From the NCBI RefSeq assembly GCF_900188295.1, contig NZ_FZNM01000001.1, positions 124,001-188,000 of the forward strand: 64,000 nt of DNA. The letters are read 5' to 3'. The number at the start of each line of letters is the position of its first letter. The stretch's first letter is position 1. The DNA comes from Paracoccus sediminis (GTDB lineage: Bacteria > Pseudomonadota > Alphaproteobacteria > Rhodobacterales > Rhodobacteraceae). The notes under the pieces were generated by a model. It searched no databases. It had not been told where the DNA came from and saw only the letters and a program-made list of their open reading frames with translations. Shown here piece after piece: positions 44,542 through 47,345 of this stretch. The position numbers were made by a program, and so were the translations under genes.

Positions 44542-44617
44542 AGGGGTTTAGCTCAGTTGGTAGAGCATCGGTCTCCAAAACCGAGGGTCGTGGGTTCGAG
44601 TCCCCCAACCCCTGCCA
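44542..44617 (+). tRNA. tRNA-Trp (anticodon CCA)
   Basis: A complete 76-nucleotide cloverleaf: acceptor AGGGGTT/AACCCCT, D arm GCTC-AGTTGGTA-GAGC, anticodon loop CTCCAAA with anticodon CCA, T loop TTCGAGT, encoded CCA. In most alphaproteobacteria it is followed directly by secE; here a methyltransferase gene lies between. Confidence 0.98.
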
Positions 44618-44726
44618 GGTCTTCCGCACATCGTTGATCGGCACCGCTTGCGCTGGCGGGCGGCTGCGCTAACCTGATCTTCACGATTGATCGGGCATCA
44701 AGACCCGATGGGCGGGGGCGGGGGCG

Positions 44727-46370
44727 ATGACGAACCATCTGTTTTACGGCGACAACCTGCGGGTGCTGCGCGACAGCATCGCGGACGAATCCGTGGACCT
44801 GATCTATCTGGACCCGCCGTTCAATTCCAACGCCAGCTACAACGTGCTGTTCAAGGGCCCGACCGGCGCCGGCAGCACCGCCCAGATCGAGGCGTTCGAC
44901 GACACCTGGCACTGGAACGACACCGCCGAGGCCGCGTTCGGCGACGTGGTGCGCGGCGACAACGCGGCGGCGGCGACCATGCTGCGGGCGATGCGGTCGG
45001 CTCTCGGCGACAACGACATGATGGCCTATCTGGCGATGATGGCGGTGCGGCTGATCGAACTGCACCGCGTCCTGAGGCCGACCGGCAGCCTGTATCTGCA
45101 CTGCGATCCGACCGCGAGCCATTATCTGAAGATTTTGCTGGATGCGGTGTTTGGGGCACAGAACTATCGTAATGAAGTTATCTGGCTTCGCTCAAGAAAT
45201 CCCAAAGGGTCACAGCATGGCGTTAAGCAACTTGGCAAATCAACAGATTCTATTTTTTACTTTGTTAAATCTGCGGCGGCACCCCTTTATCGTGACCGAA
45301 TTATGCGACCTCTCACGAATGTAGAAATTGAAGAAAAATATGCTTTCATAGATGAAATTGGCCGGTGGGATGACGGTCCGGTAATGCGCTCAGGGAGCAT
45401 GGGGGAACGTGGAAACCTCGTTTATGAGTATAAGGGATTTACCCCTGGCCCAGCAGGATGGCGCATGGAAATCGAAAAGCTAAAAGAGCTTGATAGAAAG
45501 GGGAACTTATACTGGACGTCAACCGGGCGGCCGCGACGAAAGCTTCGGCCAGAAGATGATAAGGGAACAACCGTTAGTAACTATTGGGATGACATCCCCC
45601 CGCTGAACTCTCAAGCAAAAGAACGCCTCGGCTACCCCACCCAGAAGCCCGTGGCCCTGCTGGAGCGCATCCTCAACGCCTCGTCCAATCCGGGCGACGT
45701 GGTGCTCGACCCGTTCTGCGGCTGCGGCACCACCGTCCATGCCGCGCAAAAGCTGGACCGGCGCTGGATCGGCATCGACGTGACCCATCTGGCCATCGGC
45801 CTGATCGAAAAGCGGCTGCGCGACGCCTTTCCCGGCGTGGCGTTCCAGACCCACGGCGTGCCCCAGGACATCGACGGCGCCCGCAACCTGGCCGCGCGGG
45901 GGCGCGACGACAAGAATTACTATTTCGAGTTCGAGAAATGGGCGCTGTCCCTGATAAACGCCCAGCCGGGCAACCTGTCGAAAAAGGGCGCCGACAAGGG
46001 CATCGACGGCAATCTGTATTTCGGGGCGAAACACGAAGGCCGCGCCGTCGTCAGCGTCAAGGCGGGCGACAATGTGGGCGTGGCGATGATCCGCGACCTG
46101 CGCGGCGTGATCGAACGCGAAGGCGCCCAGATCGGCGTGTTCCTGACCCTGACCGAACCGTCCCGCCCCATGGTCACCGAGGCCGCGGGCGCGGGCCAAT
46201 ACACCCTGCCGGGCACCACGATCGCCGTGCCCCGCATCCAGATCGTGACGATCCAGGACGCGATGCGTTTGCGCGACCGGGCCGTGCAGGTGCCCCTGGC
46301 CCGCGCCGATACCTTCCGCAAGCCCGCGCGCGAGGAGGACGCCACCCGCCAGTCGCGGCTGGATCTGTAA
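44727..46370 (+). CDS. DNA methyltransferase fused to a nuclease-like domain
   Basis: A 547-residue protein. The N-terminal two-thirds is a beta-class DNA amino-methyltransferase: motif [15 protein letters not shown] (residues 27-39), a long target-recognition segment, then motif [18 protein letters not shown] (about 325-341). A Mrr-like nuclease fold candidate covers residues 400-530, with D427 in [13 protein letters not shown] and the lysine of VVSVKAGDN, though the usual acidic/Gln partner of that lysine is Ser. The coding region for residues ~138-302 is clearly AT-rich, unlike both ends. It interrupts the conserved tRNA-Trp - secE junction. It may be a single-chain restriction-modification enzyme, or an orphan methyltransferase with an inactive nuclease part. 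Confidence 0.8.
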
Positions 46371-46377
46371 GGCAGGC

Positions 46378-46406
46378 TTGAATCGCAGCGCCGTCGCGGC
46401 TAGATG
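46378..46406 (+). promoter_or_regulatory. Promoter of secE-nusG
   Basis: TTGAAT (46378-46383), 17-base spacer, TAGATG (46401-46406), located just after the methyltransferase stop and about 30 bases before secE. It would let secE and nusG be transcribed independently of the inserted gene. Confidence 0.55.
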
Positions 46407-46435: not shown

Positions 46436-46633
46436 GTGGCCACCAATCCCGTCCAGTTCATCAATCAGGTCCGCGCCGAGGCCGCCAAGATCACCTGGCC
46501 GACGCGCCGCGAGGTGATAACCACGACGATCATGGTGCTGGTCCTGGCCGCGCTGTTCAGCGTGTTCTTTTCGCTGGTGGATCTGGGGATCCGGTTCGGG
46601 ATCACCGAAGGGCTGCGCCTGATCGCCAACTGA
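46436..46633 (+). CDS. secE: Preprotein translocase subunit SecE
   Basis: Small essential SecYEG subunit, 65 residues, starting at GTG 46436 behind CAGGAG. The amphipathic segment FINQVRAEAAKITWPTRREV and one membrane helix (TTTIMVLVLAALFSVFFSLVD) define it. nusG follows, as in most bacteria. Confidence 0.96.
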   Translation: MATNPVQFINQVRAEAAKITWPTRREVITTTIMVLVLAALFSVFFSLVDLGIRFGITEGLRLIAN

Positions 46634-46808: not shown

Positions 46809-47345
46809 ATGGCAAAGCGTTGGTATTCGGTCAGCGTCCTGTCGAATTTCGAGAAGAAGGTCGCCGAGGCGATTCGGCAGGCCGTTTCCGAAAAGGGACT
46901 GGACGACCAGATCGACGAGGTTCTGGTGCCGACCGAGGACGTGATCGAGATCCGCCGCGGCAAGAAGGTCACGTCCGAACGCCGCTTCATGCCCGGCTAT
47001 GTGCTGGTCCACATGGAGATGTCGGACCGGACCTATCACCTGGTGAACTCGATCAACCGCGTCACGGGATTCCTGGGCGCGCAGGGCAAGCCCCAGCCGA
47101 TGCGCGACGACGAGGTGAACGGGATGCTGAACCGCAGCGCCGATGGCGAAAAGGCCGCGCCGCGCAACCTGATCCGTTTTGACGTGGGCGAAAAGGTGAA
47201 CGTGACCGACGGCCCGTTCGAGGGATTCTCGGGCATGGTCGAGGAGGTGGACGAGCTGTCCAGCCGGATCAAGGTCACGGTGTCGATCTTTGGCCGGCCG
47301 ACGCCGGTCGAACTGGAATTCACGCAGGTCGCCAAGACCGCGTGA
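46809..47345 (+). CDS. nusG: Transcription elongation/termination factor NusG
   Basis: A 178-residue factor that binds RNA polymerase and couples it to Rho and the ribosome. The NGN domain starts KRWYSVSVLSNFEKKVAEAI and has RRFMPGYVLVHMEM. The C-terminal KOW domain contains VNVTDGPFEGFSGMVEEVD and IFGRPTPVELEFTQV. It has the standard length and place between secE and rplK. Confidence 0.98.
   Translation: MAKRWYSVSVLSNFEKKVAEAIRQAVSEKGLDDQIDEVLVPTEDVIEIRRGKKVTSERRFMPGYVLVHMEMSDRTYHLVNSINRVTGFLGAQGKPQPMRDDEVNGMLNRSADGEKAAPRNLIRFDVGEKVNVTDGPFEGFSGMVEEVDELSSRIKVTVSIFGRPTPVELEFTQVAKTA

Follow-up and report, generated by a model that had tools for sequence, protein, structure and literature searches.

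A methyltransferase and nuclease-type fusion with an exchanged specificity cassette and a clamp-motif-like tail beside secE in Paracoccus sediminis

Between tRNA-Trp and secE, Paracoccus sediminis encodes a 547-residue protein that joins a beta-class DNA methyltransferase to a nuclease-type domain and ends in a tail resembling a clamp-binding motif. Base composition and alignment breaks indicate that its specificity domain has been swapped as a cassette by recombination. We tentatively favor, as one possibility among several, a self-contained modification-restriction enzyme made of a methylase of swappable specificity, a nuclease with a Ser-x-Lys (SxK) site and a clamp-like tail. The window is the whole 64,000-nucleotide stretch analyzed (contig NZ_FZNM01000001.1, positions 124,001 to 188,000).

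A methyltransferase fused to a nuclease-type domain

An earlier reading of this DNA from its letters (the sequence-only reading) had described a 547-residue fusion between tRNA-Trp and secE, with a beta-class methyltransferase joined to an Mrr-like domain. The open reading frame, ARAGORN and Pfam matches on the neighboring genes bore out the position (Table 1), N6_N4_Mtase and Mrr_cat both matched above their curated cut-offs, and the two motifs it had quoted, GADKGIDG and VVSVKAG, are in the protein. It had mentioned neither the Ser-for-Glu active-site variant, nor the exchange of the specificity cassette, nor the clamp-motif-like tail, nor carriage by phages. The gene has one copy in its own genome, where three other matches are short stretches of other methylases. 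Since the open frame is matched over its full length at 86% identity in another genus of the same taxonomic family, and since 388 places in genome contigs encode relatives (tblastn E ≤ 1e-3, with some of them perhaps related in the methylase part alone), the frame is not due to chance and the gene is real.

Table 1. Features of the fusion gene and its surroundings, in window coordinates
Feature	Position	Strand	Details	Basis
tRNA-Trp (cca), upstream neighbor	44542-44617	+		ARAGORN
Methyltransferase-nuclease fusion gene	44727-46370	+	547 aa, ATG start, TAA stop	ORF call, Pfam
Beta-class methyltransferase, N-terminal part	44727-45173	+	residues 1-149	Pfam PF01555, structure match CcrM/BceJIV/RsrI
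Motif IV, DPPF	44811-44822	+	residues 29-32	within methyltransferase N-terminal part
Exchanged specificity (target recognition) cassette	45154-45620	+	approximately residues 143-298; borders accurate to about 50 bp	GC drop, protein identity drop, DNA alignment breaks
Methyltransferase core, second half	45621-45857	+		Pfam, conservation
Motif I, DPFCGCGTT	45708-45734	+	residues 328-336	in second half of methyltransferase core
PD-(D/E)xK nuclease-type domain	45858-46283	+	residues 378-519	Mrr_cat, conservation, fold matches
D423 (nuclease-type domain)	45993-45995	+		
D427 (nuclease-type domain)	46005-46007	+		
S443 (nuclease-type domain)	46053-46055	+		
K445 (nuclease-type domain)	46059-46061	+		
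D457 (nuclease-type domain)	46095-46097	+		
Linker, low confidence, probably disordered	46284-46349	+	residues 520-541	pLDDT 62/67/54 for residues 521-547
QSRLDL, clamp-binding-motif-like tail	46350-46367	+	residues 542-547, C-terminal	tail pattern; motif definition in excerpt of PMC11139829
Presumed secE promoter	46377-46406	+	CTTGAA 46377-46382, 18-base spacer, TAGATG 46401-46406	alignment of 12 junctions
secE, downstream neighbor	46436-46633	+		PF00584
nusG, downstream neighbor	46809-47345	+		PF02357

N6_N4_Mtase (PF01555) matched residues 23-354 (E = 6.8e-41). Motif IV precedes motif I, with a specificity domain between them; this order marks a beta-class methylase and, together with the specificity domain, places the protein among the beta-class DNA amino-methyltransferases of PF01555. 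PADLOC assigned the protein to the Type II methyltransferases (best E = 2.9e-64) and PHROGs to the DNA methyltransferases (phrog_67), while the NCBIfam matches to the protein were all far below cut-off. In a fold search, the AlphaFold model of the fusion protein (mean pLDDT 88.2) matched CcrM (Z = 25.4), M.BceJIV (25.2) and RsrI (24.8). Like Type III Mod, these are beta-class N6-adenine enzymes whose catalytic fold and motif order are common with the fusion. A DPPF motif suggests m6A as the methylated base, and m6A is probably what the fusion enzyme makes. A literature search found no Paracoccus methylome paper and no methylome or activity data on the enzyme.

The nuclease-type domain carries a candidate variant active site

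Mrr_cat matched residues 400-488 (E = 2.4e-8), and it is matched by 99 of the 99 family members scanned (set A2) at E ≤ 0.001. Because the methylase fills the match list of the whole-protein fold search, the C-terminal domain was also folded alone (mean pLDDT 85.0). It then matched AF1548 (Z = 9.7), the small subunit of R.BspD6I (9.4), MspJI (9.2), AspBHI (9.1; 21% identity over 119 residues) and FokI (8.3). NucS/EndoMS nucleases scored 7.3-7.8 (NucS of P. abyssi 7.8), in a range below 8 that we treat as unreliable here since an RNA polymerase subunit E chain scores 7.6. Foldseek alone was weaker, with EcoO109I as its best match (E = 4.8e-4) and RNA polymerase subunit E chains next, and a profile of the domain gave a single match against solved structures (E = 0.65). 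Structure prediction had been proposed as a check on this domain, with a non-nuclease fold counting against it; the predicted fold is nuclease-like, and fold and sequence profile together place the domain in the Mrr_cat subgroup of PD-(D/E)xK.

The match to Mrr_cat and the fold similarity to the modification-dependent MspJI and AspBHI could point to an Mrr-type nuclease that cuts foreign-methylated DNA while the protein's own methylase marks the host. We consider this improbable. Mrr, MspJI and AspBHI share the profile match and fold with the fusion, but the fusion family mostly has Ser where they have Gln, is joined to a methylase, and shows no modified-base reader (neither winged helix nor SRA) in the Pfam scan; for recognition, only the specificity domain that belongs to the methylase was seen. 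It seems unlikely that a methyltransferase would share its chain with a methylation-dependent nuclease.

Six residues (D423, G425, D427, G428, K445 and G447) are invariant in all 129 distinct full-length relatives. Position 443 is Ser in 115 of them, as it is in the fusion protein, Gln in 10 and Glu in 4; EcoKMrr has Gln two before the lysine (PD-QxK; PMC12707154, excerpt). In the next helix, 107 of the 115 Ser proteins have an acid at residue 457 (4 more carry Asp at 456), as do 9 of the 10 Gln proteins. Among the Glu proteins, a small group (n = 4, two of them alike), residue 457 is acidic in one and Arg in the other three. Migration of the acid within PD-(D/E)xK active sites is described in PMC1189080, an excerpt of which cites the redesign of Cfr10I. 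Ser443 with an acidic residue 457, and Glu443 with Arg457, are as expected for a relocated acid, and the pattern suggests that the acid has moved within the active site to D457. SxK is a candidate variant active site.

SxK in place of ExK or QxK would also suit an orphan, mobile methyltransferase spread by phages, whose C-terminal domain would have ceased to cut and would instead serve DNA binding or dimerization, the enzyme protecting its carrier or laying down an epigenetic mark. Similarity to the Pfam 'inactive' model NA-iREase1 points the same way: this model is also matched by 85 of the 99 family members, with the fusion protein below its cut-off and two phage copies above. The constancy of D423, D427 and K445 across 129 of 129 diverse relatives argues against a non-cutting domain, as does the pattern at positions 443 and 457, which looks like a site kept by residue exchange. 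In the same vein, nine phage and plasmid copies beyond the alignment all keep the D...SVK motifs, with D and K present in 9/9. We regard the orphan methyltransferase as doubtful, though a serious candidate.

One characterized parallel for a methylase followed by a nuclease was found, the Type IIC enzyme BtgZI (PMC4081073, excerpt). Like the fusion, it has the methylase first and a variant PD-(D/E)xK nuclease last in one chain; unlike the fusion, which is beta-class, belongs to a mostly SxK family and has a clamp-motif-like tail, it is described there as pairing an alpha-class methylase with Q in its nuclease site. Judged by profile and predicted fold, the fusion holds methylase and endonuclease domains in one chain, as Type IIC enzymes do. 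With its beta-class methylase, SxK site and clamp-like tail it would count as a Type IIC variant, and like Type IIC enzymes it might cut at or near its own recognition site when this is unmodified. Papers on Mrr-domain methylase fusions beyond Type IIC were not found in the literature search. The single-chain restriction-modification enzyme suggested by the sequence-only reading is plausible, given a beta-class methyltransferase and a nuclease-type fold.

The specificity domain has been exchanged as a cassette

Between about 45100 and 45620, GC content dips to a minimum of 0.36 from a level of about 0.65-0.70, and GC3 drops with it: 0.87 for residues 1-149, 0.42 for 150-298, 0.92 for 299-385 and 0.90 for 386-547. 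Mean identity to the fusion protein, over 128 aligned relatives, is 28% in residues 151-296 versus 77% in the methylase core. At the DNA level, alignments with the copies of WLY502, P. luteus, G069 and three loci from other assemblies (L138, L139, L142) break at 45153-45208 and restart at 45584-45621. The only unbroken alignment among the copies compared in this way is with Frigidibacter albus (L136, the same gene as L107), at 80% DNA identity over 44712-46372. The specificity domain of the F. albus protein is 92% identical; the next best of the 128 reaches 54%.

The Frigidibacter gene lies in another neighborhood, common to 7 other loci of the set, beside a gene that we take to be gatB. The WLY502 gene, at the same junction and in the same genus as ours, does not share this cassette: across residues 151-300, blocks of 30 residues are 20-43% identical. 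Composition and breaks together indicate that the specificity domain has been swapped as a cassette by recombination. The Frigidibacter match in a different neighborhood, set beside the WLY502 mismatch, indicates that this domain has moved between genera; perhaps the whole fusion gene has done so as well.

The C-terminal tail resembles a clamp-binding motif

Confidence of the model is low after residue 519, and the protein ends in QSRLDL; related proteins end in QGxLDL, QGSLL, QGDLF and similar forms. The clamp motif is given as Q-aliphatic-x-[L/M]-[F/L] or Q-aliphatic-x-[L/M]-x-[F/L] in a 2024 review (PMC11139829, excerpt), which lists C-terminal clamp motifs in Pol II and Pol IV and both five- and six-residue forms. 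The looser pattern Q-x-x-[LMIF]-(x)-[LFIV] lies within the last 8 residues of 105 of the 129 relatives and at the extreme end in 102, of which 77 have the six-residue and 25 the five-residue form. Shuffling the last 40 residues 1000 times gave a mean of 2.2 proteins with the pattern and a maximum of 7. With one representative per 60% identity cluster, the terminal pattern is in 15 of 32. Within the last 8 residues it is found in 88 of the 96 members that come from cellular genomes versus 17 of 33 from viral contigs. Of the 24 proteins without it there, 13 have one in the last 60 residues, against a mean of 4.6 in 500 shuffles, none of which reached 13.

As controls, we took other PF01555 methylases from 31 genomes including the host's own (54 of 58 matches read). 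One of the 54 has the tail pattern, or 1 of 48 after dropping five without a DPP-type motif and one duplicate; at least 23 of the 54 belong to one lineage, presumably CcrM-like, so they are not independent. Those presumed CcrM-like controls differ from the fusion family in being without its tail pattern. The sole control with a similar tail is a 321-residue open frame (L298, genome G025) that ends in QSRMAL.

Measured against the strict motif, the tail falls short at one position. QSRLDL has Q, L and L in place and Ser at position 2, where 64 of the 102 terminal motifs carry Gly. Only 6 of 129 tails show the strict form, taken as Leu, Ile, Val, Met, Ala or Phe at that position. According to the excerpted review, substitution at position 2 lowers affinity and is tolerated better than loss of the Gln, and some known ligands have Ala or Thr there (PMC11139829). 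A canonical example is QFKLPL of Caulobacter HdaA (PMC3836487, excerpt). The family tail may work like a DnaN ligand, although we do not file it as one, and its binding may be weak or absent given the non-canonical second position. The 6 strict tails in 129 slightly lower the odds of clamp binding, and with it those of our preferred explanation and of the wider clamp-riding reading discussed below.

The tail may instead be a dimer-contact or stability element in an enzyme otherwise as we propose. This judgment concerns the tail alone and overlaps the preferred explanation; we hold it quite conceivable, a little short of an even bet. The prevalence of Gly at position 2 and the 6 of 129 canonical forms favor such a role, whereas the extreme C-terminal place of the motif, its predicted disorder, the interchangeable five- and six-residue forms and their rarity in related methylases are less easily squared with it.

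Tails of the phage and plasmid copies are more varied. Three Streptomyces phage copies end in QTEKLF or QMEKLF, a Mycobacterium phage copy in TETLF and actinobacterial plasmid copies in AMPLF and ELLFE; two alphaproteobacterial copies have an internal QASLSL or QIEMIF, and the pMLa copy, the ninth read, has no clear tail motif. The actinobacterial phage and plasmid tails do not fit Q-x-x-L and recall NucS. NucS/EndoMS enzymes combine a PD-(D/E)xK fold with a C-terminal clamp motif, KLRLF in Streptomyces, and NucS cleavage is stimulated by the beta clamp (PMC11109965, excerpt). Together with the tail pattern and the NucS/EndoMS fold matches (Z = 7.3-7.8), this could point to a replication-coupled, strand-discriminating nickase that nicks the new strand of hemimethylated DNA behind the fork for repair, in the manner of Dam with MutH or of clamp-bound NucS. 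NucS/EndoMS, unlike the fusion, has no methylase and recognizes mismatches. A swapped specificity domain, a patchy distribution (10 of 125 congeners) and carriage by phages speak against housekeeping repair, and we think a nickase very unlikely.

Relatives are found in cellular genomes, phages and plasmids

Relatives at E ≤ 1e-60 occur in 35 of 394 genomes of the host's taxonomic family, its own included. The best 80 of the 388 relatives encoded in genome contigs were retained, and a further 45 loci lie in viral contigs. Six plasmid records carry relatives, two of these carriers being actinobacterial, as do 28 phage records (22 Streptomyces, 5 Mycobacterium and 1 Marinitoga). Relatives are widespread in Alphaproteobacteria and are also found on phages and plasmids. 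Phage Hippo, one of the carriers, encodes a DnaE-like polymerase.

No partner gene is conserved within 4 kb of the relatives: the largest cluster of neighbors covers 9 of 121 loci (ABC-transporter superfamily) and the second largest 8 of 121, which share the neighborhood of what is presumably gatB, in a clustering that would miss an unrelated nuclease differing at each locus. We count the lack of a conserved partner nuclease in favor of a self-contained enzyme. The same lack, with the 28 phage records and 45 viral-contig loci, would also suit an orphan methyltransferase, and self-protection accounts for phage carriage no less well than restriction does, which counts against our preferred explanation.

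Several loci were of note individually. On a Cellulosimicrobium plasmid (L315:1-763), an annotated restriction endonuclease lies directly upstream of the homologue. A homologue precedes secE in an alphaproteobacterial metagenome-assembled genome (L138:30-2640), and another lies between nusG and rplK in one of Sphingomonas (L162:1-2790); both were noticed post hoc in a set of 154 loci (L107-L260) with flanks of at most 6 kb, many of them shorter. The secE-nusG-rplK region may be a preferred landing place. In three Rhodobacterales metagenome assemblies (L156, L168, L173), homologues end 48 bp before a tRNA-Ser.

A possible self-contained enzyme held on replication clamps

Restriction-modification enzymes must spare the host's freshly copied, half-marked DNA. 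In the explanation that we tentatively prefer, the flexible tail would hold the enzyme on sliding clamps (DnaN) left behind the replication fork. The beta-class methyltransferase, probably adenine-N6 and with a specificity domain exchangeable by recombination, would from there methylate the hemimethylated daughter sites of the host. DNA unmarked on both strands, such as that of an incoming, replicating phage or plasmid, would be cut by the Mrr/MspJI-like PD-(D/E)xK domain with its putative Ser-x-Lys site. Sequence or predicted structure shows the domain make-up, conservation at the catalytic positions, exchange of the cassette and the tail pattern with its rarity in other methylases. We infer m6A as the base, cleavage by the nuclease, binding of the tail to DnaN and the choice between maintaining and cutting. 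More broadly, bacterial and phage methylase-nucleases might ride the replication clamp, have the fate of DNA decided during replication and swap specificity between genera by cassette; we see this general reading as a somewhat less probable proposition.

Clamp tethering of a methylase has a eukaryotic precedent in Dnmt1, which has a PCNA-binding motif and is probably coupled to PCNA for its work on hemimethylated DNA (PMC9690074, excerpt). The idea is the same, but Dnmt1 is an unrelated C5-cytosine enzyme with no nuclease, and its clamp is PCNA, not DnaN. The nearest case found in the literature is that of M.EcoGIX and M.BceJIII, bacterial plasmid methylases that are, like our proposal, linked to replication (PMC7736820, excerpt); they are tied to DNA polymerase I and act on single strands, and the excerpt mentions no nuclease domain. 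In the open-license literature, represented in part by excerpts, we recognized no clamp-bound bacterial methylase or restriction enzyme. The words 'methyltransferase' and 'methylase' are absent from the excerpted main text of PMC11139829, and no methyltransferase or restriction enzyme is named in the excerpt of PMC13254535, a 2026 study of how RecBCD relates to the clamp.

If true, tethering to the clamp would offer a direct means of sparing new host DNA and would aim the enzyme at replicating DNA. Marking and cutting would then be coupled to replication, in a bacterial counterpart of Dnmt1-PCNA. Since relatives are widespread in Alphaproteobacteria and occur on phages, mostly of Streptomyces, and on plasmids, the result would apply widely.

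The fusion is repeatedly lost from the tRNA-Trp/secE junction

Among 125 Paracoccus genomes, secE was found in 121 and tRNA-Trp in 121, with both on one contig and strand in 114. The gap between them in these 114 is below 300 bp in 37, 476-5169 bp in 76 and 1.8 Mb in one. The order tRNA-Trp, secE, nusG, described earlier as conserved, is indeed what most of the genus shows, but the genes at the junction are not tightly spaced. Methylase family matches at E ≤ 1e-30 occur in 10 of the 125 genomes, some of them distant or located elsewhere. At the junction itself, the fusion is intact in 2 genomes of the 125, split by an insertion sequence (IS) in 1 and reduced to a remnant or scar in 5, as sought by tblastn in 57 fetched junctions; these took in 1 of the 37 junctions shorter than 300 bp, so that short scars elsewhere may be missed. 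The survey of this junction that had been suggested found the fusion at the same place in some relatives, with content that varies.

The intact copies are those of the window and of WLY502 (G122). In G069, an IS with a DDE transposase cuts the gene within the specificity region. C-terminal remnants start at residue 371 in G001, 481 in G028 and 520 in G103, and in G003 inspection by eye of 12 aligned junctions showed a scar that still codes for the tail letters QFGLDL. The G112 copy retains residues 1-50 and 426-547, with secE on another contig. In a tree of secE and nusG from the 30 genomes closest in their secE, with 14 of its 27 inner forks left open, the seven intact, split or reduced copies fall in one group of 15, whose support of 85/97 is not strong. 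WLY502 (intact) and G001 (remnant) are sisters (100/99), as are G103 (remnant) and G003 (100/99). Intact and remnant copies in sister species, and repeated loss, show that the location does not preserve the gene, contrary to the earlier suggestion that insertion in an essential cluster helps to keep it. Such frequent loss in Paracoccus would also be in keeping with an orphan methyltransferase.

Just before secE, all 12 of the aligned junctions have GCTTGAA, whether they hold the fusion or not, and TA(C/G)ATG follows about 17-18 bases later in 10 of the 12. A generic sigma-70 scan found no promoter-like element for secE (0 found). From its conservation, the element is probably secE's own promoter; because it is kept with or without the fusion, the gene lies upstream of it and appears to leave this presumed promoter untouched. 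That the fusion might block secE expression was considered and rejected, since the promoter-like element is common to junctions without the gene.

Other genes also occupy the junction. In G112, a MerR/DUF433 and DUF5615 (PIN-like) pair, perhaps a toxin-antitoxin pair, replaces the middle of the fusion (L057:3257-4294), and a tRNA-Cys lies just past the remnant. An HPP-CBS membrane gene stands between tRNA-Trp and the fusion in WLY502 (L051:2063-3259) and G069; in the window and G112 it is absent from this place and the fusion directly follows tRNA-Trp. As the usual resident of the junction the HPP gene was rejected, being present in 10 of the 57 fetched junctions. Other members of the genus have a nearly empty junction or other genes there. 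In 34 of the 57, the place is taken by an unrelated gene of about 290-320 aa that encodes GAHKTA(S/T) close to the start (for example L085:426-1313); the one copy scanned (L085) had no Pfam match at 0.001.
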